NCBI GenBank assembly: GCA_009676745.1
Contig: CP046062.1
Coordinates: forward strand, 915,501-979,500
From: Leuconostoc mesenteroides subsp. mesenteroides
GTDB lineage: Bacteria; Bacillota; Bacilli; Lactobacillales; Lactobacillaceae
Direction of reading: 5' to 3'
DNA length: 64,000 nt
Shown: positions 2,543 through 42,528 of the stretch, piece after piece
Layout of the letters: every line of letters starts with the position of its first letter
Numbering within the stretch: the stretch's first letter is position 1
Made by a program: the position numbers and the translations under genes
The notes under the pieces: model-generated
What the model saw: only the letters and a program-made list of their open reading frames with translations
Told to the model about the DNA's origin: nothing
The model's database searches: none

Positions 2543-2604
2543 ATTTGTAAAGTATAGGTGGCTGGTAAAGATAAAAACTAGTCACAATAGTGAAAGGAAA
2601 AAAT

Positions 2605-3654
2605 ATGGGCTTAATTGAAGATCTTACGGCTTTAAAAGATTCAGCAGTGGAACGGATTAATGATAAAAATGCTGATATTGAGCAATTACGTGTAAAATTA
2701 TTAGGAAAAAAAGGTGAGTTAACAGGTTTGCTGAAGGGGATGAAGGATGTCGCCGCAGAAAATCGTAAAATGGTTGGTGAAGTTGGTAATGATGTTCGTC
2801 AAACGATCACAGAATTATTACAACAAAAAAAACAAGCTCAAGAAGAATATGCTTTAAATCAACAATTATTAGCAGAAAAAATTGATGTTACTCTACCAGG
2901 TAGCGCGCATCCGGTGGGACAACCACACGTTTTACAACAAATTATTGATGAAATTGAACAACATTTCTTGGGCCTTGGTTTTGAAATAATCGATGATACA
3001 GTTGATTCACCAGAAGTTGAAACTGATGAATATAACTTTGAACGTGAAAATTTGCCTAAGGATCATCCTGCTCGTGATATGCAAGATACATTTTACATCA
3101 CGCCAGAAATTTTATTGCGTACGCAAACCTCTCCAGTTCAATCTCGATCGCTTGAAAAACATGATTTTTCAAAGGGACCACTGAAAATGATTGCCCCTGG
3201 AAAAGTCTATCGTCGTGATACCGATGATGCTACTCACTCGCATCAGTTCCATCAAGTTGAGGGCATGGTAGTTGGCGAAAATATCACAATGGCTGATTTA
3301 AAAGGAACATTGCTTTCGATTATGCAAGAATTATTTGGTGAAAAACATCAAATTCGCATGCGACCTTCTTATTTTCCGTTCACTGAACCGTCTGTGGAAG
3401 TAGATGTTTCTTGGAATGAAGTGACACCGGATATGAATCCAGAAGACATTGAGTGGATTGAAGTTCTTGGAGCTGGAATGACACACCCAAATGTATTAAA
3501 AATGGATGGCATTGATCCTGAAAAGTATTCAGCTTTCGCTTTTGGCTTAGGGCCGGATCGGTTTGCTATGTTGAAATATGGTGTAGATGATATACGCCAA
3601 TTTTACTTGAATGATGTGCGTTTCTTATCACAATTCAATCGAAAGGGGAACTGA
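2605..3654 (+). CDS. pheS: Phenylalanyl-tRNA synthetase alpha subunit
   Basis: Catalytic subunit of the α2β2 enzyme that charges tRNA-Phe. The 349-residue protein has the N-terminal coiled-coil tRNA-binding arm (to about residue 85), then class II motifs: motif 2 around [22 protein letters not shown] and motif 3 around [12 protein letters not shown] near the C-terminus. ATG at 2605 is chosen over an in-frame GTG at 2590 because AAAGG (2593-2597) is 7 nt upstream of it. The T-box leader controls it, and pheT follows after 2 nt. Confidence 0.97.
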
Positions 3655-3656
3655 TT

Positions 3657-6113
3657 ATGAAAACAAGCTTAACATGGTTAAATGAATATCTGAATAATGC
3701 AATTGATTTGCACCCTAAATCAGTGAGTGATTTAGCGGAAAAGGTAGAGCGTACAAGTGTAGAAATCGATAGTAACACAACGATTGCTTCAGGGCAAAAT
3801 GGTCTTGTAGTAGCTAAAATATTATCAGTCATGCCACATCCAGATTCTGATCATATGGTCATTACACAGGTGGATACTGGTGAATCAGAACCAATACAAA
3901 TTGTCACAGGCGCGCCTAACGTAGCTGAGGGGCAAATGGTTATTTTAGCTAAAGTCGGTGCACATATTATTAATCGTGAAAATGGTGAGCTAATTGAGTT
4001 AAGTGCAGTTAAGCTACGCGGAGAATCCTCTTACGGCATGTTGGTTGCACTACAGGAGATAGGCTTTAGTGAAAAAATTGCCCCCAAAGCGTTTGAAGCA
4101 GGGATTTATGTTTTTAATGAAAGTGATGATGTCAAACCTGGAGATGATGCGCTTGTTGCTTTGGGCATGAATGAGCCGGTACTAGATACTGATTTAACAC
4201 CTAATCGAGCAGACATGCTATCAATGATCGGTACAGCTTATGAATTTGGAGCGATGCTAAATAAGCCAATTACGCTACCATCATTTGAGCTGGTTGAATA
4301 CGAACAAAAAGCAGACAGTCAAGTTGCTGTCCACATTGATGATCAGGAATTGGTTTCAAAATATGCGTTGCGTGTTGTGAATAATGTAACCATAAAGGAT
4401 TCTCCCTTATGGTTACAAAAACGCTTATGGAATGCTGGTATGCGACCAATTAACAACATCGTTGACATCACGAATTATATGATGCTAACTTATGGTCAAC
4501 CACTACATGCATTTGATTTAGACAAATTAAATGGTTCAGATATTTACGTACGCCGTGCGCAAGATGGTGAAAAATTAGTAACCTTAGATGGTGAAGAACG
4601 ATCATTGCGATCTGGTGAAGACATAGTCATTGCTGATGAATCAAAAGGGTTAATGTTAGCTGGTGTCATGGGTGGTATGGACTCTGAAATTGATAATAGC
4701 ACGAAAAATATCGTGATTGAAAGTGCTATATTTAATCCAAGTTTGGTTCGAGCAACTGCAAGACGGCATAATTTGCATTCTGAGGCTTCATCGCGATTTG
4801 AACGTGGGTTAAATTGGGACGCAACACTTGACGCTTTGGATCATGCAGCTAGTTTAGTGGATGAATTAGCAGATGGTCAAGTAGCACGTGGACAAATTAT
4901 TGCTGCTGATGATGTTCGTAAAGATATCCAATTATCATTATCAACGCAACGAGTAAATAAAATTTTAGGTACTTCATTAGAAATGGATGAAATTACCAAT
5001 ATTTTTGATAAGCTGAACTTTGTTTATGAAAAAAATGATGAAAAAATAGTTGTTGATGTGCCAGCACGTCGCGCTGATATTTCTATTGAGGCTGATTTAA
5101 TCGAAGAAGTCGCACGCTTGTACGGTTATGACAACTTACCAGTTACATTACCGTACGGACCTACAACGGCGGGAAAATTGTCTAAAGAACAACGTCAAAT
5201 TCGTGCTAGTAGACATATTATGGAAAGTTTGGGATTAAATCAAGCAATTTCATACGTGCTAACAACGAGTGAAAAAGCCCAGTTATTTGCTGAGGATAAG
5301 GCAGATGGTGTTGTAACATTAAACTATCCGATGAGCTTGGACCGTACAACGGCTCGTCAGAATTTGTTGGCAGGTTTATTAGATGATGTCAGTTATAACG
5401 TGAGCCATTTTGTACCTAATGTTGCGTTATATGAGCAGGGTCGAGTGTTTATTGCTAATGAACCGAATGAGCAACCAAAAGAAATTGAACATGTAGCGGG
5501 AATACTGACTGGTAATTTACAAAAGTCATCATGGCAAGAATCTAAGCAAAAAAAATCTGTTGATTTTTATGATATCAAGGGAATTGTAGAAAGTTTTTTG
5601 GATCAAATTGGTGTCGATAACGTCCGTTATGTTGCGACAAAACGCCATGAAAGTATGCACCCTGGTCAAACGGCTGATGTTTATATTGGGGAACAATATG
5701 TCGGTTTTGTTGGTCAAATTCATCCAAAAATTACAAAAAAACAAAAGCTAGCGGCAGTGTTTGGGTTTGAGCTTAATTTATTTACTGTATTTAATCATGT
5801 AACAGATGCTATTCAATTTAATCCTATTTCACGTTTTCCACAGATTAGTCGTGATGCCGCATTACTAGTTGATCAGATAATAACAAATAGTGAAATTAGT
5901 GAGACAATTGCAGATACAGCAGGAGAACACTTGGTAGATGTGACTTTGTTTGATGTTTATACGGGTGACAACTTGCCAGAAGGCAAAAAGTCACTTGCCT
6001 ACACGTTAACTTATCAAGATAGTGACGGCACATTGTTAGAAAGTGATGTAAGTTCTGATTTTGAACGTATTATGAGCAAATTGCAATCTAAATTTAATAT
6101 AGAAATACGCTAA
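3657..6113 (+). CDS. pheT: Phenylalanyl-tRNA synthetase beta subunit
   Basis: Editing and tRNA-binding subunit of PheRS; partners with PheS. At 818 residues it has the usual length. In order: N-terminal EMAP-like tRNA-binding domain (residues about 40-150, with PHPDSDHMVITQVDTGE), B3/B4 editing region (about 200-400, with GQPLHAFDLDKL and ASSRFERGLNWD), B5 domain, catalytic-like core, and a C-terminal ferredoxin-like anticodon-binding domain (ISRFPQISRDAALLVD). AGGGGAAC before the ATG gives a good ribosome binding site. Co-transcribed with pheS. Confidence 0.97.
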   Translation: MKTSLTWLNEYLNNAIDLHPKSVSDLAEKVERTSVEIDSNTTIASGQNGLVVAKILSVMPHPDSDHMVITQVDTGESEPIQIVTGAPNVAEGQMVILAKVGAHIINRENGELIELSAVKLRGESSYGMLVALQEIGFSEKIAPKAFEAGIYVFNESDDVKPGDDALVALGMNEPVLDTDLTPNRADMLSMIGTAYEFGAMLNKPITLPSFELVEYEQKADSQVAVHIDDQELVSKYALRVVNNVTIKDSPLWLQKRLWNAGMRPINNIVDITNYMMLTYGQPLHAFDLDKLNGSDIYVRRAQDGEKLVTLDGEERSLRSGEDIVIADESKGLMLAGVMGGMDSEIDNSTKNIVIESAIFNPSLVRATARRHNLHSEASSRFERGLNWDATLDALDHAASLVDELADGQVARGQIIAADDVRKDIQLSLSTQRVNKILGTSLEMDEITNIFDKLNFVYEKNDEKIVVDVPARRADISIEADLIEEVARLYGYDNLPVTLPYGPTTAGKLSKEQRQIRASRHIMESLGLNQAISYVLTTSEKAQLFAEDKADGVVTLNYPMSLDRTTARQNLLAGLLDDVSYNVSHFVPNVALYEQGRVFIANEPNEQPKEIEHVAGILTGNLQKSSWQESKQKKSVDFYDIKGIVESFLDQIGVDNVRYVATKRHESMHPGQTADVYIGEQYVGFVGQIHPKITKKQKLAAVFGFELNLFTVFNHVTDAIQFNPISRFPQISRDAALLVDQIITNSEISETIADTAGEHLVDVTLFDVYTGDNLPEGKKSLAYTLTYQDSDGTLLESDVSSDFERIMSKLQSKFNIEIR

Positions 6114-34613: not shown

Positions 34614-35116
34614 AAGTCAACTTAGTATTAGCACCAGAACAGTCAGTTTCGGAACTGTTAACATTACAAAATGCGCAACCAAAAAATATATTTTATTTAG
34701 GCAAAATTTCTCAACTTGCCGGGACAAATTTACTTATCGTTGATGCACAGGATATTGTTACAAAATTTGCCCGCCCCATTGGATTTGACAGTCGCGTAGT
34801 TATTGGACCATTGAAGGGGAGTGTTGTCCATCAAATTGCCTTTCAGGCTAAAGATAACAATGATGAATTGATTGCAAAGTTATTAACTGGGAATGCTATT
34901 ATGGCTCAAAATGATAATGGTAAGTCAGAGTATATGATTTGGTCGTTTTGGTCTACTCATGATGAATTAGCACGATTTCTGGCTAGTGAAATCTATCAAC
35001 AAATGCACGCTTTGATGAAAAATCCGTATACTACAACTTATCAACGAGTGATGGATGCTTCGCAGTTATCCTTGACGACTAGAATGCGTGACTTTGACAA
35101 GGAGTGGTGGGGATAA
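34610..35116 (+). CDS. Unrecognised 168-residue protein ending the MoxR/VWA operon
   Basis: I do not recognise this gene. The 168-residue soluble protein has a first part of alternating β-like segments (NIFYLGKISQLAGTNLLIVDAQ) and a helical C-terminal half rich in aromatic residues, ending FDKEWWG. Start overlaps the preceding gene (ATGA; GGAG at 34600-34603 upstream). Being the last of four tightly coupled genes, it is a candidate substrate, adaptor or regulator of the ATPase-VWA pair. Confidence 0.7.
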   Translation: MKVNLVLAPEQSVSELLTLQNAQPKNIFYLGKISQLAGTNLLIVDAQDIVTKFARPIGFDSRVVIGPLKGSVVHQIAFQAKDNNDELIAKLLTGNAIMAQNDNGKSEYMIWSFWSTHDELARFLASEIYQQMHALMKNPYTTTYQRVMDASQLSLTTRMRDFDKEWWG

Positions 35117-35169
35117 GAAATGACGAAAGATAATTTCTACATTTTTATTGTGTGAAGTCCGATATGTCC

Positions 35170-35198
35170 TTGACAATGTTTTTACCGGCCTGTATGAT
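35170..35198 (+). promoter_or_regulatory. Promoter of the liv operon leader
   Basis: A perfect TTGACA (35170-35175), 17-nt spacer and TATGAT (35193-35198). Strong match, about 30 nt before the leader peptide start. Confidence 0.85.
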
Positions 35199-35231
35199 AT
35201 TAGATATTAAGAAATTAGGAGGCAACGCATC

Positions 35232-35294
35232 ATGAAAAATATGAATCAAAAGCAAAACTCATCTCAAGCCCTCCTTCTCCTCCTCATGCTGTAG
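35232..35294 (+). CDS. Leucine-rich leader peptide of the liv attenuator
   Basis: A 20-codon reading frame with a strong ribosome binding site (AGGAGG, 35217-35222, 9 nt from the ATG). Residues 14-18 are five consecutive leucines, followed by Met and a final Leu. The leucine codons are mainly CTC, which is rare in the surrounding genes (TTA/TTG preferred), so translation should be sensitive to charged tRNA-Leu. The stop TAG (35292-35294) lies inside the first strand of the downstream hairpin array. It functions as a sensor, not as a protein. Confidence 0.85.
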   Translation: MKNMNQKQNSSQALLLLLML

Positions 35295-35421
35295 TCATGA
35301 TGAGGTTTTTCGCGCTCATGACTAACTGGTATCAGTTTTCATGGGTGTTGAAGTGATGAGTATAACTACTATCATTATTAACGATTAGTGACCCATGAAT
35401 CTTGGTATTCATGGGTTTTTT
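35292..35421 (+). promoter_or_regulatory. Leucine-responsive transcription attenuator of the liv operon
   Basis: Five segments share a CATG core. A TAGTCATGA (35292-35300) pairs with B TCATGACTA (35316-35324). B plus flank, GCGCTCATGA (35312-35321), can instead pair with TCATGGGTGT (35339-35348) of C. C TTCATGGGT (35338-35346) pairs perfectly with D ACCCATGAA (35391-35399). D CCCATGAAT (35392-35400) pairs with E ATTCATGGG (35407-35415) plus T6, the terminator. Model: with leucine, the ribosome stops at the TAG and covers A, so B:C forms and D:E terminates. Without leucine it stalls on the Leu codons, A:B forms, C:D forms, and transcription continues. Confidence 0.8.
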
Positions 35422-35466
35422 GTTTGTGAAAAGAAGGAATAGAGAGAAGAAATTGGAGAAGAAAGA

Positions 35467-36642
35467 ATGAAAAAAATTATAATTGTTGGCGCTGCATTTA
35501 TTGTTGCTGTTGGTGGTATTGCTGCATTTGGAGTAGTCAATAAGTCTAGTAAAGTATCGACATCAAATGTGATCAAAATCGGGGGTGTTTTTGATACATC
35601 TGGTGATGCATCTTCATATGGAAAAGCTGAACAAGATGGTGCTGATTTTGCTATTAAGCAAATTAATGCTAATGGTGGTGTTAAAGTTAACGGAAAAAAT
35701 TATAAGTTTAAAATCATTAACAAAGATGCGAAGACGGACAATACTGAAACTGCTTCGGTAACAAGTAGTTTGATCAACAACGAAAAAGTTAGTGCTATCG
35801 TTGGCCCTGTGATTACCTCTGGTGTTCAGTCAGCAGTACCAGTTGCCACTCAAGGTAAGACACCAATGATTTCACCAACCGCTGGTGCAGACAATATTAC
35901 TTTGCAAAAGAATGGGGATGTTCAACCTTACGTATTCCGTGCACAATACAAAAATTCTTTTATGGGTACAAAGATGGCGCAGTTTGCCACAGAAAATTTA
36001 AAAGCTAAAAATATTGTAATTTTCCAAGACAATTCTTCCGATTATGGTACAGGGATCACATCTGCATTTAAAAAAGCTTTCAAGGGTAACGTTGTAGATG
36101 TTGAATCTTATCAAGCAGGTACGAAAGACTTTCAAGCAGTCTTGACAAAAATTAAGGATAAAAAGTTTGATGCTATTGCAATTAATGGTTATTACACTGA
36201 GGGTGGCGCAATTTTGAAACAAATGCGTGATATGGGGATTAATGTGCCGGTTATTGGACCAGATGGCATTGGTGATCCTAAAACAGCTGAAATTGCAGGA
36301 AATAAAAATACAAGCAATGTTTATTACGCATCGCATTTCTCAGTTGATGCACCAGCTACTAAGGTTTCAGCGCCATTTGCCAAAGCTTATAAAAAAGCTT
36401 ACGGTAAGTATCCATCACAATTTACAGCTTTGGCTTATGATTCAGTTCGCATGATAAAAGCAGCTATTGAAAATGAAAATTCAACTAGCAAATCGGCAAT
36501 TACTAAGGGATTGGCTAACTTGAAAAACTTTGATGGTGTAACTGGTAAGATGTCAATTGACAAAGACCACAATCCTGTCAAATCAATGGTTATGGTCGGT
36601 ATGACTGATGGTAAAGAGTCATCTGCCGTAGTTGTTAAGTGA
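35467..36642 (+). CDS. livJ: Branched-chain amino acid ABC transporter binding protein
   Basis: Extracytoplasmic substrate-binding protein of a Liv-type importer (type I periplasmic-binding fold). The 391-residue protein begins with an N-terminal hydrophobic segment (about 4-24), then KIGGVFDTSGDASSYG, the family start with ligand-binding SGDASSYG, and later FTALAYDSVRM. No lipobox cysteine is present, which is unusual for a Gram-positive binding protein; it may be held by an uncleaved membrane helix or be released. GGAG precedes the ATG. First gene after the leucine attenuator. Confidence 0.92.
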   Translation: MKKIIIVGAAFIVAVGGIAAFGVVNKSSKVSTSNVIKIGGVFDTSGDASSYGKAEQDGADFAIKQINANGGVKVNGKNYKFKIINKDAKTDNTETASVTSSLINNEKVSAIVGPVITSGVQSAVPVATQGKTPMISPTAGADNITLQKNGDVQPYVFRAQYKNSFMGTKMAQFATENLKAKNIVIFQDNSSDYGTGITSAFKKAFKGNVVDVESYQAGTKDFQAVLTKIKDKKFDAIAINGYYTEGGAILKQMRDMGINVPVIGPDGIGDPKTAEIAGNKNTSNVYYASHFSVDAPATKVSAPFAKAYKKAYGKYPSQFTALAYDSVRMIKAAIENENSTSKSAITKGLANLKNFDGVTGKMSIDKDHNPVKSMVMVGMTDGKESSAVVVK

Positions 36643-36699: not shown

Positions 36700-37578
36700 A
36701 TGACTACTTTCATTCAACAATTAATCAATGGGCTTATGCTAGGTAGTGTATATGCACTACTAGCTTTAGGCTACACAATGGTCTACGGTATTATTAAATT
36801 AATCAACTTTGCACATGGTGATATATACATGCTCGGTGCGTACTTTGGCTATTTTTTCATCAAGGTGTTACATTTAAATTTCTTTATAGCATTAATTCTG
36901 GCAATGGTAGTAAGCGCCGTTATCGGCGTGGTCATTGAGTACATTGCCTATCGACCATTACGTCATTCTCCAAGAATTGCGGTTCTAATCTCTGCTTTAG
37001 GTATATCGTTTTTTCTAGAAAATGGTATGACTTATTTATATGGATCAGATCAACGTTCATTTCCACAGGCTATTAAGACAGTACAGTACCAATTTTGTGG
37101 CATACAAATTTCAAACATTCAGTTGATTATCGCTGTAACTTCAATAGTTTTGATGCTGTTATTGACTTACATTGTTAAAAATACAAAAATGGGTCGTGCG
37201 ATGCGGGCAGTATCCGCAGATCCAGATGCAGCTTCATTAATGGGCATCAATATCAATCACACAATTTCATTTACATTTGCAATTGGGTCAGCATTGGCGG
37301 CGGCTGGTGGCGTTTTGATTGGATTATATTATAACAGTATTGATCCACTGATGGGGATGACACCTGGGTTGAAAGCGTTCGTTGCTGCTGTTTTGGGCGG
37401 TATAGGAATTATTCCAGGAGCAGCAGTAGGCGGTTGGCTAATCGGTATATTGGAAACAATGGTTCAAGCGACACCTTTTTCAGATTACAAAGATGCGATT
37501 GTGTACGCTATGTTGATTGTCATATTACTTATTAAACCGACTGGTATTTTAGGGAAAAACAAGCGGGAGAAAGTTTGA
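36700..37578 (+). CDS. livH: Branched-chain amino acid ABC transporter permease LivH
   Basis: Integral membrane subunit of the Liv importer. The 292-residue protein starts with QLINGLMLGSVYALLALGYTMVYGIIKLINFAHGD, the LivH signature, and contains GRAMRAVSADPDAASLMGI, the EAA-like cytosolic loop that contacts the ATPases, with about eight membrane segments. A 57-nt gap after livJ holds a small hairpin-forming sequence that might moderate expression relative to livJ. The stop overlaps the livM start (TGATG). Confidence 0.94.
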   Translation: MTTFIQQLINGLMLGSVYALLALGYTMVYGIIKLINFAHGDIYMLGAYFGYFFIKVLHLNFFIALILAMVVSAVIGVVIEYIAYRPLRHSPRIAVLISALGISFFLENGMTYLYGSDQRSFPQAIKTVQYQFCGIQISNIQLIIAVTSIVLMLLLTYIVKNTKMGRAMRAVSADPDAASLMGININHTISFTFAIGSALAAAGGVLIGLYYNSIDPLMGMTPGLKAFVAAVLGGIGIIPGAAVGGWLIGILETMVQATPFSDYKDAIVYAMLIVILLIKPTGILGKNKREKV

Positions 37579-38552
37579 TGGATCAAGCGCATATTAAATA
37601 CACATTATCTTGGGCATCTTTGGCTGCAATGGGGTTCATTTTAATATTTGTAGCACAAATGGTTGGCCTTATTGGTCATTATGGTATCACAACAATTGTG
37701 CTAATCGGTATTAACATCATTGCTGCACTGGGACTTAATCTGGTAGTGGGTATTTCGGGACAGTTTTCGTTAGGACACGCCGGATTTATGGCTATCGGTG
37801 CTTATGCAACAGCATTAGTTATGGAAGTTGTTCCCGGTGTCATTGGCTTTATTTTGGGAATGGTTTCAGGTATCGTAGTCAGTGGTGTGATTGCCTTAGT
37901 TGTTGGGATTCCAACTTTGCGTTTACGTGGTGATTATTTAGCTATTGCAACATTAGGATTTGCTGAAATTATTCGAATTGTCATTATGAATTTGAAAATA
38001 ACTAACGGGCCAGCTGGTATCTTTGGTATCGCACCTTTTGTGAGTTGGCAATTAGTTTATGTATTAGCAGTCATAACATTGATTATTGTGGTTAACTTTG
38101 TTCGTAGTATGCCGGGGCAAGCTATTATTGCTGTTCGTGATAATGAAATTGCTGCTGAGTCTCTAGGGATTAATACAACTAAGTATAAAGTAATTGCTTT
38201 TGTGACGGGCGCATTATTTGCTGCTATGGCTGGTAGCTTGCGTGCAAGTTTCATCCAATCTATCGCGCCTAAAGATTATGCTTTTATGCAAAGTATTATG
38301 ATCTTAATCATTATTGTGATAGGTGGGATTGGATCAATGAGTGGGACAGTTGTGACAGCAATTGCGTTAGGTCTGTTAGACACGATGTTACAAAATTTTG
38401 GTTCTTTGCGTATGGTTATCTATGCTGCTATTTTAATTGTTGTGATGTTAATTAGACCTCAAGGTATTTTCGGTAGTCGAGAACTATCGTTAAAAAAATG
38501 GTTATTTGATGAAGGAGACAGACATGGCTCAGACAATACTGAAAACGCGTGA
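37578..38552 (+). CDS. livM: Branched-chain amino acid ABC transporter permease LivM
   Basis: Second membrane subunit of the Liv importer, about 324 residues, with LVVGISGQFSLGHAGFMAIGAYATAL (LivM signature, split across about 56-82) and GQAIIAVRDNEIAAESLGIN as the ATPase-contact loop. About ten membrane segments. ATG at 37578 overlaps the livH stop; the C-terminus overlaps the livG start by 29 nt. Confidence 0.94.
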   Translation: MDQAHIKYTLSWASLAAMGFILIFVAQMVGLIGHYGITTIVLIGINIIAALGLNLVVGISGQFSLGHAGFMAIGAYATALVMEVVPGVIGFILGMVSGIVVSGVIALVVGIPTLRLRGDYLAIATLGFAEIIRIVIMNLKITNGPAGIFGIAPFVSWQLVYVLAVITLIIVVNFVRSMPGQAIIAVRDNEIAAESLGINTTKYKVIAFVTGALFAAMAGSLRASFIQSIAPKDYAFMQSIMILIIIVIGGIGSMSGTVVTAIALGLLDTMLQNFGSLRMVIYAAILIVVMLIRPQGIFGSRELSLKKWLFDEGDRHGSDNTENA

Positions 38553-39309
38553 TTTAAGTATCCGTTTTGGCGGTGTAACTGCTGTTGATGGTGTTAATAT
38601 TGAGGCTGCCGAGAATGAGCTAATTGGTTTAATTGGGCCAAATGGTGCTGGTAAAACCACATTATTTAATTTATTAACAGGTGTGTACTCACCAAGTGAG
38701 GGAGAAGTACTCTTATTTAATGGTCAGCAGTTAGCTAATGTTAACCATCAATCTCCTGCAAAACGTGCTCGATTAGGTGTTGCGCGTACTTTTCAAAATA
38801 TTCGCTTGTTTGAAAGTCGAACGGTATTAGAAAATGTTATGATTGCTATGAATTCTAATACTCAGGCACATGTGTTCAGTTCATTATTTCGTTTACCTTC
38901 ATTTTATAAAAATGAAGAGCAACTAAAAAACGAAGCTCGTCAGCTGCTAAGTATTTTTGATATGCTGGCAGTACAAGATACATTGGCAACAAACTTACCA
39001 TATGGGCAACAACGACGTTTAGAAATTGTGCGAGCATTGGCCACTAAACCTAAGATTTTATTTTTAGATGAGCCAGCAGCTGGTATGAATCCACAAGAAA
39101 CTGCAGATTTAACACGTTTAATTAAACAAGTGCAACAAGATTTTAAAATGACAATTATTTTAATTGAACACGATATGAATCTTGTTATGGCTGTTAGTGA
39201 GCGATTATATGTTTTAGAGTATGGCAAGTTATTAGCCAGCGGCACACCATTAGAAATACAGCAGAATGCCGATGTGATCCGAGCATATTTGGGAGAAAAG
39301 AACGAATGA
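38524..39309 (+). CDS. livG: Branched-chain amino acid ABC transporter ATPase LivG
   Basis: ATP-binding subunit of the Liv importer. About 261 residues with Walker A GPNGAGKTT, a LivG-type insertion (VFSSLFRLPSFYKNEEQL), the degenerate signature YGQQRRLEI, Walker B ILFLDEPAAGMNP and switch His in IEHDMN. ATG at 38524 with AAGGAG (38509-38514) is chosen; the frame open from 38506 lies inside livM. Overlaps livF by 4 nt. Confidence 0.94.
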   Translation: MAQTILKTRDLSIRFGGVTAVDGVNIEAAENELIGLIGPNGAGKTTLFNLLTGVYSPSEGEVLLFNGQQLANVNHQSPAKRARLGVARTFQNIRLFESRTVLENVMIAMNSNTQAHVFSSLFRLPSFYKNEEQLKNEARQLLSIFDMLAVQDTLATNLPYGQQRRLEIVRALATKPKILFLDEPAAGMNPQETADLTRLIKQVQQDFKMTIILIEHDMNLVMAVSERLYVLEYGKLLASGTPLEIQQNADVIRAYLGEKNE

Positions 39310-40019
39310 GTGCATTACTGACAGTTGAAAATTTAAACGTAAGTTATGGTGCCATTAAAGCAGTACAAAATGCTAACTTCATGGTGAATAATAATGAAAT
39401 CGTATCATTAATTGGGGCTAATGGTGCTGGAAAAACGACAATTTTACGTACGATTTCAGGATTAGAAAAACCTACTAAAGGACGTATTTTATTTGAAAAT
39501 CAAAATATATTGACGATGAATTCAGAGCGAATTGTCTCAAGTGGCATTGCTCAAGTGCCAGAAGGTCGACGTGTCTTTTCTGGCATGACTGTTCAAGAAA
39601 ATCTACAGTTGGGTGCTTTTACTCGAAGCAAGAGTATTAACTTGAAAGATGAATATACTCTTATTTACGATCAGTTTCCCATTTTAAAAGAAAGACGTAA
39701 CCAAGATGCAGCGACATTATCTGGTGGTGAACAGCAAATGCTAGCTATGGGTCGTGCATTAATGGCAAAACCGAAATTGTTATTACTAGACGAGCCTTCC
39801 ATGGGCTTGGCACCGCTATTTATTGAGAAAATTTTTGATATTATTAAAAATGTTAATGCACAAGGAATGACAGTATTAGTAATCGAACAAAATGCGAATC
39901 AAGCGCTAAAAATTGCGGATCGTGGCTATGTTTTGGAAAGTGGAAAAATCACGATGGCAGGAACGGGAGCAGAGCTGCTTGCATCAGATGACGTGCGTAA
40001 AGCATACTTAGGTGGTTGA
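39306..40019 (+). CDS. livF: Branched-chain amino acid ABC transporter ATPase LivF
   Basis: Second ATP-binding subunit, 237 residues, with Walker A GANGAGKTT, signature LSGGEQQMLAMGRAL, Walker B LLLLDEPSMGLAP and IEQNANQAL. Forms a heterodimer with LivG. Last gene of livJHMGF; no strong terminator is visible before the thiM leader promoter, whose -35 overlaps the livF end. Confidence 0.94.
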   Translation: MSALLTVENLNVSYGAIKAVQNANFMVNNNEIVSLIGANGAGKTTILRTISGLEKPTKGRILFENQNILTMNSERIVSSGIAQVPEGRRVFSGMTVQENLQLGAFTRSKSINLKDEYTLIYDQFPILKERRNQDAATLSGGEQQMLAMGRALMAKPKLLLLDEPSMGLAPLFIEKIFDIIKNVNAQGMTVLVIEQNANQALKIADRGYVLESGKITMAGTGAELLASDDVRKAYLGG

Positions 40020-40044: not shown

Positions 40045-40063
40045 GAAGTAGAATTAAATAAAT

Positions 40064-40133
40064 ATCTGGGGTGCCCATGCGGGCTGAGAGATACCCATTG
40101 AACCTGATTACGGTAATTCGTGCGAAGGAAGAT
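40064..40133 (+). promoter_or_regulatory. TPP (THI) riboswitch
   Basis: Shows the conserved THI pieces in order: GGGGTGCCC, GGGCTGAGA, ACCC, GAACCTGAT, CGGTAATTCGTGCGAAGGAAGAT, with P1 closing between ATCT (40064-40067) and AGAT (40130-40133). It should bind thiamine pyrophosphate and favour the terminator at 40174-40213, turning off thiMDE. Confidence 0.96.
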
Positions 40134-40173
40134 TATAATAATGAACTATTTTGGTGTATAAATATGCCTATTT

Positions 40174-40213: not shown

Positions 40214-40294
40214 ATTCGTTACTATTCATTTTTAAAATAAATGAAGATATCTGCTTAAAAACACGGAGCCAAATGAGAAAAAAGGAATTTGATC

Positions 40295-41074
40295 ATGAAT
40301 ATTACAGATATTAGAATGAAATCACCTCTTGTCCTTACTTATGCAAACTTTGTTACGCCACAATTTGTAGCTAATGCAGTTAATATTATTGGTGCCTCAC
40401 CATTAATGAGTCGTGAACCAGCAGAATTTAACGAATTAGCAAGAATTGCCAATACGGTGATTATTAATACTGGTACACTTAAAAAATCAGAAATTAACGA
40501 TATTATTGAACTTTCTCAGGAAGCATACCAATTAGGGAAGCCAGTTGTATTAGATCCGGTTGCTGTATCAATGCCATTTAGGTCGAAAGCTATTACACAA
40601 TTTTTAGCTTCTGGTCATGTTGATGTGATTCGTGGCAATGCAGCCGAAATTGCTTGGTTTGCCGATATGCATTTTGCTAGTCAAGGTATCGATGCTACTG
40701 GAAAAGGTGACGTGATTGAAATTGCACAGCGTGCCGCCCGAAAAACAGGTGCAGTGATTGCGTTGAGCGGAGCTTGTGATGTGGTCAGTGACGGTCAATA
40801 CACAGAAATACTTGATATAAATGTCAAGCAACTATCTACCATTGTAGGTACAGGAGATGCCTTATCATCATTAATCGGCGCTTTTATTGCTGATGATCTA
40901 AAAGTTTCTAACGTGATGCATGCAATGGCTACATTTAAACTTGCTGGGCAAAAAGCCGCTGCAAAAACGAATCAACCAGGCTCTTTTACAAATCAATTAT
41001 TAGACGAATTATTTGTTATTGATAATATAGCTATTCAAAATTTTATTAAGGAAAGAGTGCTGAATCATGGTTAA
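40295..41074 (+). CDS. thiM: Hydroxyethylthiazole kinase
   Basis: Phosphorylates 5-(2-hydroxyethyl)-4-methylthiazole in thiamine salvage. About 259 residues with the ribokinase-like features: SPLVLTYANFVTPQFVANA at the start, SPLMSREPAEF, VLDPVAV, and the C-terminal VGTGDALSSLIGAF with catalytic Asp. AAAGGAATTTG precedes ATG 40295. The operon keeps only salvage genes (thiM, thiD, thiE); no thiC/thiG type genes are seen here, so the organism may need thiazole and pyrimidine or thiamine from outside. Confidence 0.94.
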   Translation: MNITDIRMKSPLVLTYANFVTPQFVANAVNIIGASPLMSREPAEFNELARIANTVIINTGTLKKSEINDIIELSQEAYQLGKPVVLDPVAVSMPFRSKAITQFLASGHVDVIRGNAAEIAWFADMHFASQGIDATGKGDVIEIAQRAARKTGAVIALSGACDVVSDGQYTEILDINVKQLSTIVGTGDALSSLIGAFIADDLKVSNVMHAMATFKLAGQKAAAKTNQPGSFTNQLLDELFVIDNIAIQNFIKERVLNHG

Positions 41075-41900
41075 TCAAACACCGCAAGTTTTAACAATTG
41101 CTGGTATGGACAGTAGTGGTGGCGCTGGAATTAGTGCAGATTTAAAGACATTTGCTGCTCAAGGTGTTTATGGCGCTAATGTTATTGTTGCTTTAACAGC
41201 ACAAAATACGATGGGTGTACAGCAAGTTTCGATGACGCCACTATCTATGATCCATGCACAACTAAAATCAGTTGCTGATGACTTGAAAATAAGCGCTGTA
41301 AAAAGTGGCATGCTTGGCGATATGACTACAGTAGAAGCAGTTGCTGAATTTTTACAGCAAGCAGATTTTGGTGACTATGTGTTAGATCCGGTCATGGTTG
41401 CGAAAGGAGGGGCGCACTTATTGAGTGACGAGGCTATAGGTGCTATTCAAGCTGTTTTGCTACCTTTGGCAACGCTCATTACGCCTAATATACCAGAAGC
41501 CGAAGTCTTAAGTGGGTTAAATATTAATCACCATAAAGATGTCATACAATCGGCTTCAAAGATACAACAATTAGGCGTTGAAAACGTATTATTAAAAGGC
41601 GGACACACTTCTGGAAAAGAAGTTTATGACTATATTCTACTGGCTGATGGTCGTCATTTTTGGCTTAAAAGCTCACGGGTAGATACAATTAGAACACACG
41701 GTACGGGGGATACTATTTCTGCAGCTATTACTGCACGTTTAGCTTTGGGAGACGATATGAAAACGGCTATTATTCATGCGAAAGCTTATGTTGATGCTAC
41801 CATTCGTGAAGGTATTGATGTTGGTCATGGGCATGGACCGCTTAATCACCAAGCAAGAGTGACTGAAGGACATTTTCCAGAGGTGCTGGAAAATGTTTGA
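41067..41900 (+). CDS. thiD: Hydroxymethylpyrimidine/phosphomethylpyrimidine kinase
   Basis: Phosphorylates HMP and HMP-P for thiamine synthesis. The 277-residue protein shows IAGMDSSGGAGISADLKTFAAQGVYG, VKSGMLGD, VLDPVMVAKGG, ITPNIPEAE and GTGDTISAAI, all typical of ThiD. Overlaps thiM by 8 nt and thiE by 8 nt, with AAGGAAAG upstream. Confidence 0.95.
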   Translation: MVNQTPQVLTIAGMDSSGGAGISADLKTFAAQGVYGANVIVALTAQNTMGVQQVSMTPLSMIHAQLKSVADDLKISAVKSGMLGDMTTVEAVAEFLQQADFGDYVLDPVMVAKGGAHLLSDEAIGAIQAVLLPLATLITPNIPEAEVLSGLNINHHKDVIQSASKIQQLGVENVLLKGGHTSGKEVYDYILLADGRHFWLKSSRVDTIRTHGTGDTISAAITARLALGDDMKTAIIHAKAYVDATIREGIDVGHGHGPLNHQARVTEGHFPEVLENV

Positions 41901-42528
41901 TCCGAGTATATTAGTAAATTATCTGGTATTAGGAACTCAGGATACCAATGGAGAAAGACATTTTTTTGAAGTCCTAGAGGAAGCACTACAATCGAAAATC
42001 AGTGTATTTCAATATCGAGAAAAAGGGCGACTGGCTTTAACTGGGGCTGAAAAGTTACGAGTAGCCAAAAAAGTCCGGCAACTAACAGCTGACTACCATG
42101 TGCCATTGATTATTGACGATGACATTCAACTAGCCCATGAAATTGGTGCCGAAGGTGTTCATTTTGGGCAAAAAGATGGCGATATTATAAATAATATTCA
42201 GTTAGCTGGAAGTCTAGCAGTTGGGGTGTCGGTATCCAATAGTAGCCAGTATCAGAGAATAGAAAACATTAGAGGGATTGATTATATCGGAATTGGTCCT
42301 ATTTTTGCAACGGTAAGCAAATCTGATGCCAATCCAGAGGTTGGGATTGCAGGGTTACAATATTTAACAAGCAAAAGTAAATGGCCAAGTGTAGCAATCG
42401 GTGGAATATCGGAAACAAATTTGCCATCTGTTTTATCTACCGGCGTTAATGGTGCTGCTGTAATCAGTATGATTAGTCAAAGTTCAAATATAAGTGCTAC
42501 TTTAAAATATTGGCGTTCGTTATATTGA
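41893..42528 (+). CDS. thiE: Thiamine-phosphate synthase
   Basis: Joins HMP-PP and thiazole phosphate into thiamine phosphate. The 211-residue TIM-barrel protein has QYREKGRLALTG, LIIDDDIQLAHEIGAEGVHFGQKD, GIDYIGIGPIFATVSKSDA and AIGGISETN, the ThiE signatures. Last gene of the TPP-controlled operon. Confidence 0.94.
   Translation: MFDPSILVNYLVLGTQDTNGERHFFEVLEEALQSKISVFQYREKGRLALTGAEKLRVAKKVRQLTADYHVPLIIDDDIQLAHEIGAEGVHFGQKDGDIINNIQLAGSLAVGVSVSNSSQYQRIENIRGIDYIGIGPIFATVSKSDANPEVGIAGLQYLTSKSKWPSVAIGGISETNLPSVLSTGVNGAAVISMISQSSNISATLKYWRSLY

Follow-up and report, generated by a model that had tools for sequence, protein, structure and literature searches.

Ribosome-mediated attenuators of the his, leu and trp type in enterobacteria have a run of regulatory codons and a chain of alternative hairpins, with the terminator last. 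In the order to which Leuconostoc belongs, attenuators of branched-chain amino acid (BCAA) biosynthesis, with a BCAA-rich leader and a terminator, were reportedly predicted by Godon in 1992 and by others for Lactococcus lactis and Streptococcus; these lie on biosynthetic operons. BCAA attenuators have been worked out for biosynthesis in Staphylococcus aureus (PMC5794164) and Listeria (PMC5864092). The S. aureus ilv-leu attenuator has a Leu/Ile-rich leader peptide, a terminator and leucine-dependent repression, and its antiterminator is proposed to pair with the poly-U tail (PMC5794164). In Listeria, the ilv-leu operon is controlled by Rli60 (Rfam RF02414), which combines a short BCAA-rich leader ORF with overlapping hairpins and an intrinsic terminator. 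A reporter for it responded to BCAA, and mutants of its start codon, ribosome binding site and terminator behave as those of an attenuator; that study describes four segments, a 13-aa leader and ilvD as the first gene (PMC5864092). Leaders of his genes are known in some Firmicutes (PMC2965389, PMC9413887). According to one review, ribosome-mediated attenuation is common for BCAA biosynthesis in Gram-positive bacteria, and the passages on transporters considered here do not mention it (PMC6123439). For amino acid transporters of Firmicutes, T-boxes are described, in which tRNA binds the RNA directly and which have no leader ORF (PMC2494555).

The locus described here lies in a 64,000-nt stretch of Leuconostoc mesenteroides DNA (the window, meaning the whole stretch that was analysed). 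It shares the BCAA-rich leader ORF and the terminator with the S. aureus and Listeria systems, and the competing hairpins with that of Listeria, but those control biosynthetic operons, whereas this one precedes an importer operon. The control of transporter transcription by amino acid supply is the task that T-boxes perform elsewhere, but there is no T-box at this locus. The initial annotation had called such attenuation of an amino acid importer unusual for a Gram-positive bacterium. Attenuators of this kind have been published in Gram-positive bacteria for BCAA biosynthetic operons, so that only the use on a Liv importer is unusual. The upstream ORF ends at 35116 and livJ begins at 35467; a promoter, a leader ORF and a terminator sit in the gap, with the following features read from the letters and, for the operon, from Pfam matches:

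35170..35198, plus strand: promoter TTGACA -17- TATGAT, 11 of 12 consensus matches (-35 element TTGACA at 35170-35175, 17-nt spacer, -10 element TATGAT at 35193-35198)
35217..35222, plus strand: Shine-Dalgarno sequence AGGAGG of the leader ORF
35232..35294, plus strand: leader ORF of 20 codons plus TAG, MKNMNQKQNSSQALLLLLML, present in five Leuconostoc genomes
35271..35285, plus strand: regulatory codons CTC CTT CTC CTC CTC (Leu14-Leu18)
35292..35294, plus strand: stop codon TAG of the leader ORF
35467..36642, plus strand: livJ, substrate-binding protein (PF13458)
36700..37578, plus strand: livH, permease (PF02653)
37575..38552, plus strand: livM, permease (PF02653)
38506..39309, plus strand: livG, ATPase (PF00005 and PF12399)
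39306..40019, plus strand: livF, ATPase (PF00005)

The first reading of a strong promoter ahead of a 20-codon leader is borne out by the 11 promoter matches and by the AGGAGG in front of the ORF. Two other promoter-like sites are listed downstream on the plus strand, at 35348-35375 (9/12, within the attenuator) and at 35454-35483 (10/12, overlapping the livJ coding start). Likewise, the five consecutive Leu codons are mostly rare ones, as had been claimed: four are CTC, the rarest Leu codon among window ORFs that are 200 aa or longer (72 of 1749, 4.1%). One further Leu codon, CTG at 35289-35291, follows the run. The intrinsic terminator lies about 50 nt upstream of livJ. Hence, a short ORF with a ribosome binding site is placed between a promoter and a terminator, and its five Leu codons precede an operon whose Pfam domains make up a full Liv importer, with a binding protein, two permeases and two ATPases. 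Elsewhere in the window there is a T-box leader at 2315-2508 (107.6 bits), ahead of the apparent pheS (2590-3654) and pheT (3657-6113) ORFs. A TPP riboswitch at 40057-40147 (66.8 bits) precedes an apparent thiM/thiD/thiE cluster of ORFs (40289-42528).

Folding of the transcript places the following strands between the Leu codons and the U run:

35279..35289, plus strand: strand L, Leu codons that pair with 35294-35305 in the minimum free energy fold (L:A, -11.4 kcal/mol)
35292..35300, plus strand: strand A, TAGTCATGA, which holds the stop codon
35316..35324, plus strand: strand B, TCATGACTA
35339..35346, plus strand: core of strand C (the B:C helix spans about 35334-35348)
35391..35398, plus strand: strand D, 5ʹ arm of the terminator and antiterminator partner of C
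35408..35421, plus strand: strand E (35408-35416) and the U run, 3ʹ arm of the intrinsic terminator

The initial annotation had described an array of five strands, A to E, with the stop codon in A. The stop codon does lie within A, and A:B, B:C, C:D and D:E can all form, with nine perfect pairs in A:B and eight between the C core and D; but the pairing of the Leu codons with 35294-35305 had been overlooked, so there are six strands, not five. The strands have CATG in common, which is self-complementary and could make the claimed pairs trivial; all strand pairings were therefore checked. Of the 15 possible pairings, the five strongest are the five adjacent ones (L:A -11.4, A:B -12.3, B:C -16.1, C:D -14.3 and D:E -15.4 kcal/mol), and the strongest non-adjacent pair is B:E at -10.3 kcal/mol. 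D:E (35390-35417) is the sole terminator-like site found within 34900-35600. The leader fold has a z-score of -4.3, with an equally stable fold in none of 200 shuffles. We reject a chance origin of the strand array, since the chain of four 7-bp links in the real stretch occurs in only 2/500 dinucleotide shuffles and in 0/962 other 133-nt pieces from both strands of the window. In the folding calculations the antiterminator and terminator helices are mutually exclusive. The chain of L and A to E has the same topology as the his leader of enterobacteria. Unlike the enterobacterial his, leu and trp attenuators, however, the element belongs to a Gram-positive bacterium, precedes an importer operon and has no Rfam leader match at its locus.

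The element is very probably a leucine-responsive, ribosome-mediated transcription attenuator of livJHMGF. We infer that the leader is translated and that the ribosome stalls on it according to the leucine supply. When charged tRNA-Leu is plentiful, the ribosome would reach the stop codon and cover A; B:C would then form, leaving D free for E, and the D:E terminator would end transcription in the cell ahead of livJ. When leucine is scarce, the ribosome would stall on the CTC run, which would also remove strand L from A. A:B and C:D could then form, E would be left without a partner, and transcription would continue into livJ. Underlying this proposal are the strands, their conservation, their covariation in relatives, the identity of the codons and the folds preferred while E has yet to be transcribed, all of which the analysis shows.

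The proposed direction of the switch was examined by masked folding of a transcript ending at D, with an assumed ribosome footprint of 31 nt. The probability of C:D is 0.38 with the ribosome at Leu14, 0.71 at Leu16, 0.06 at Leu18, 0.01 at the stop codon and 0.60 with no ribosome. Since C:D is high for early Leu codons and low for the stop codon, an early stall tips the fold towards the antiterminator, and occupancy of the stop codon tips it towards the terminator. The sign assigned to the switch by the initial annotation thus stands for Leu14, Leu16 and the stop codon but not for Leu18, the last codon of the run, where a stall would not antiterminate in the masked folding. With E included, D:E has an equilibrium probability of 0.98-0.99 in every ribosome state. 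Hence, the choice would have to be made during transcription, before E emerges. Without a ribosome the window element folds partly into A:B and C:D (0.6), so super-attenuation is not reproduced. For transcripts ending at D, the claimed sign appears in all five genomes of the window's group.

We searched 19 Leuconostoc genomes, found a LivJ match in 14 and scanned all 14 upstream regions (LivJ is 91% identical in the relatives L003 and L002, pseudomesenteroides and falkenbergense). A Leu leader precedes the operon in 14/14, and its RNA sequence differs in nine. In five genomes, one per species (G000, G054, G208, G112 and G210), the window-type leader lies directly ahead of livJ. Among these five, none of the 61 columns in the strands and the Leu run is variable, as against 19 of 97 in the rest of the attenuator and 19 of 48 upstream of the expected start site. 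The nine other genomes (loci L022, L023 and L051-L057) have no leader near livJ, but in 9/9 a Leu leader (e.g. MTNTFNKQVNNALLLNLLLI) was found farther upstream, about 1400 nt from livJ. It lies ahead of a gene of 380 aa, itself followed by livJ, that has equal length and similar ends in all nine; in L053 its product is a PTS EIIC (PF13303). The nine genomes keep a chained array in other letters, which in L053 reads A AGTCTAGTAG, B CTACTAGACT, C TAGTAGCTGGTTAGG, D TCCTAAC and E CGTTGGGGCG. Across the nine leaders, 96.3% of the A:B and D:E pairs are formed and two pairs have changed on both sides; B:C has one two-sided change and is not clearly above shuffles (57/500). The masked folding does not reproduce the sign in these nine leaders, in which D pairing is the same across ribosome states (0.58-0.71). 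In this second Leuconostoc type, C:D is compatible with most of B:C, and A:B is highest in the stalled states in three of the five leaders examined. In the window's own genome a second Leu leader, MSSTAIQHMNNHEVLLLNLLSVYLTS, with a terminator behind it, lies at leuA (L247, contig C1 near 507 kb, minus strand).

A search for LivJ in 201 genomes of the family gave 62 matches in 51 genomes. The plasmid collection gave no match. We examined 60 of the 62 upstream regions, leaving out the second copies of two tandem pairs, and found a leader of this kind in 38 (five in Leuconostoc and 33 in others). In the other 22, nine of which were read by eye and 13 scanned for small ORFs, no such leader was found; one of these (L036) has only 54 nt of upstream sequence. 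A model that includes the Leu codons, R1, gave a single weak partial match in the 22 (L084, at a contig end, 12.3 bits, E 0.29). The search of other liv operons that the initial annotation had suggested supports its reading: a Leu leader is present in 14/14 LivJ-bearing Leuconostoc genomes, and a related leader at 33 other Lactobacillaceae loci. The 33 leaders outside Leuconostoc (alignment A1) have a common core, with ...Q.L(A/V)LLLK.KDP as the peptide in most. The core continues with A AAGGACCCGAC and a hairpin that varies between leaders; B GUUGAGCCCUU, C AAUGAUGAGGGCU, D CCUCAUUC and E GAAUGAGG follow, and a U run ends it. At three aligned positions Leu is encoded by 96/96 codons (TTA 60, TTG 17, CTA 11, CTC 5 and CTG 3), counted in 32 sequences with exclusion of L070, whose Leu-Ile-Ile-Ile run is not aligned in frame. 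Genome G059, from which L070 comes, has two liv copies, one with this Leu-Ile-Ile-Ile leader (ARLIIIK) and one with a Leu leader (L083, RALLLF); this is a natural codon swap.

Covariation had also been proposed as a check. When strands are exchanged between species, the native pairs of the 33 leaders are more stable than the swapped ones for A:B (z -6.2), B:C (-7.1), C:D (-4.7), D:E (-10.5) and L:C (-7.1), and 0/2000 permutations reach any of the five pairings. The ten other pairings have z-scores of +1.9 to -2.8 (reached by 5/2000 permutations for A:E, 88/2000 for L:E and 101/2000 for C:E). In a column count, L:C, A:B and D:E together have 95.0% of cells paired, and 0/500 shuffles reach any of five measures. 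By columns C:D and B:C are weak (reached by 25/500 and 46/500 shuffles), the B:C count being made on an alignment partly out of register in C; both tests are uncorrected for kinship. Each claimed pairing is thus supported by the swap test, and A:B and D:E also by columns, but C:D and B:C by columns are barely beyond shuffles. In the leaders of lactobacilli, the partner of L is C, and their helix encloses A:B; such a pairing is not known from the enterobacterial attenuator. A stalled ribosome in these leaders would therefore act twice, by freeing C from the codons and by letting A take B.

R1 at E <= 0.01 matched 157/397 family genomes and 71/295 order genomes, but it also matches pheS leaders in other families (L128, L133, L134 and L138, by eye), so our counts rest on a second model, R2, built from strands A-E alone because R1 contained the Leu codons. 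R2 was trained on 33 liv and 15 leuA/leuB leaders (alignment A2). In A2, columns 5/64 and 7/62, inside the A:B helix, have non-standard pairs in 34/48 and 29/48 leaders, mostly A-C in liv-type leaders, with A-U and U-A in leuA-type leaders; these positions may tune the helix. At E <= 0.001, R2 matched 50/201 family genomes and 45/295 order genomes, with some genomes in both sets. It gave 98 distinct sites, of which 92 were inspected (39 training members and 53 new); G081 (a contig end), G484, G505, G451, G544 and G629 were left out.

A leader ORF preceded by a Shine-Dalgarno sequence is present at 90/92 of these sites, and at the other two the run is visible by eye. At least four BCAA residues in five occur in 68 of the 90 leaders and three in the other 22, compared with 18% and 38%, respectively, of 1137 control small ORFs from the same loci. 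This test took the best ORF where a site had several candidates; sites with a single candidate have at least four BCAA residues in 61/83. The 53 new sites contribute 51 leaders with 44 different peptides, and in 37 of these leaders the count of BCAA residues is four or more. A codon test in any frame proved too permissive: four consecutive BCAA codons occurred in 43/82 sequence windows, compared with shares of 13% in shuffles and 8% in 540 other windows, and three of four were common everywhere, so it was replaced by the test based on ORFs. The runs at R2 sites are Leu only, Ile only or mixed. The genes 3ʹ of the sites, from translations read by eye, include livJ, leuA, leuB, ilvD, a branched-chain aminotransferase, oppA/dppB-type and CstA-type genes; further ones are SBF-like transporters (one weak Pfam match), iron-containing alcohol dehydrogenase (Pfam) and an amino-acid-binding-type gene. 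Ile-rich leaders in other families of the order (L199, L201, L202, L214, L217, L218, L233 and L236) precede livJ-like, aminotransferase and SBF-like transporter genes, which hints at branched-chain amino or keto acids as the cargo of these SBF-like proteins. At L157 and L158, a leader with QALLMLSIKDPIII lies ahead of an iron-containing alcohol dehydrogenase gene. Masked folding of the 90 leaders leans the expected way by more than 0.1 in 62, is neutral in 23 and leans the opposite way in five (58 and five, respectively, with rounded values). With the A-C stretch shuffled, 128 of 360 lean the expected way, 184 are neutral and 48 lean the opposite way.

Could the RNA sense its ligand directly, as a riboswitch or by T-box-like binding of tRNA, with the Leu-rich ORF incidental? 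Strong structure and a terminator ahead of a transporter are typical of riboswitches, and many amino acid genes of this bacterial order are under T-box control (PMC2494555, PMC9413887). Nevertheless, we consider direct sensing very unlikely. No Rfam family was found at the locus, although a T-box and a TPP riboswitch were detected elsewhere in the window; the only T-box (RF00230) match in the window is that at 2315-2508. A search with Rfam for a T-box or known riboswitch likewise gave nothing at the leaders of 20 liv loci. In an Rfam scan of eight loci, rli60 was above the cut-off at L234 and below it at L204, and Phe_leader reached 36 bits at L199 (cut-off 55). Furthermore, the codons of relatives change synonymously and still encode Leu, the RNA core persists where the run ahead of other genes has become Ile or mixed BCAA, and the Leuconostoc clades retain the Leu leader with RNA of different letters.

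Equally slight is the chance that the leader is translated but that the stall is set by the nascent peptide or the general rate of translation rather than by leucyl-tRNA. Residues flanking the run (Q.L(A/V)LLLK.KDP) are conserved beyond Leu in lactobacillar leaders, as such a stall would predict; yet they are missing in Leuconostoc and leuA-type leaders, which keep the BCAA run, and the conserved AAGGACCC, which encodes KDP, doubles as strand A. Least credible of all is a mere constitutive terminator with a chance Leu run in the leader: D:E alone is a good intrinsic terminator that forms in every state at equilibrium, but a promoter is located between the upstream gene and the leader, and the chance tests, the conservation pattern and the comparative evidence all oppose this explanation.

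Attenuation by a translating ribosome thus remains the preferred reading, and Rli60 is among the described systems nearest to it. R2, which was trained on lactobacilli, finds an rli60 site: L234, ahead of ilvD, matches Rfam rli60 at 183.6 bits and has a 13-aa leader, with the mixed run MKTTKSVITILLL as opposed to the Leu run of the window. However, the window element has no match to RF02414 at gathering score, and R2 also misses it, with a best match of 6.8 bits (E 0.23) in the wrong place. The sequences therefore do not make the window element a recognisable homologue of Rli60, and the link of the other Lactobacillaceae leaders to Rli60 runs through one model. As a case of ribosome-mediated attenuation, the window element is well supported.

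What is the significance of a leucine leader ahead of an importer operon? In titles and the openings of abstracts, among the matches listed and with subscription journals mostly outside the scope, we found no report of a Leu leader ahead of a liv operon in lactobacilli or Leuconostoc. This kind of mechanism is known; its placement on an importer, its breadth and the pairing of the codon strand with C are, as far as we have seen, new. We lean, with modest confidence, towards a single attenuator family with exchangeable codons (Leu, Ile or mixed BCAA) that would serve importers and biosynthesis alike across Lactobacillales (in the GTDB sense, which includes Listeria), in the role that T-boxes fill elsewhere. 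In lactobacilli its codons would sequester C, which would give a stalled ribosome its double effect, and in Leuconostoc the same logic would be written in different letters in two clades. If so, ribosome-mediated attenuation in Gram-positive bacteria would no longer be a matter of single biosynthetic operons; it would control amino acid uptake throughout a lineage and be programmable through its codons. The natural Leu-to-Ile swaps would make the sensing step directly testable. The element would also provide a leucine sensor that food bacteria possess naturally, and would offer a handle on the tuning of leucine import in Leuconostoc and lactobacilli.
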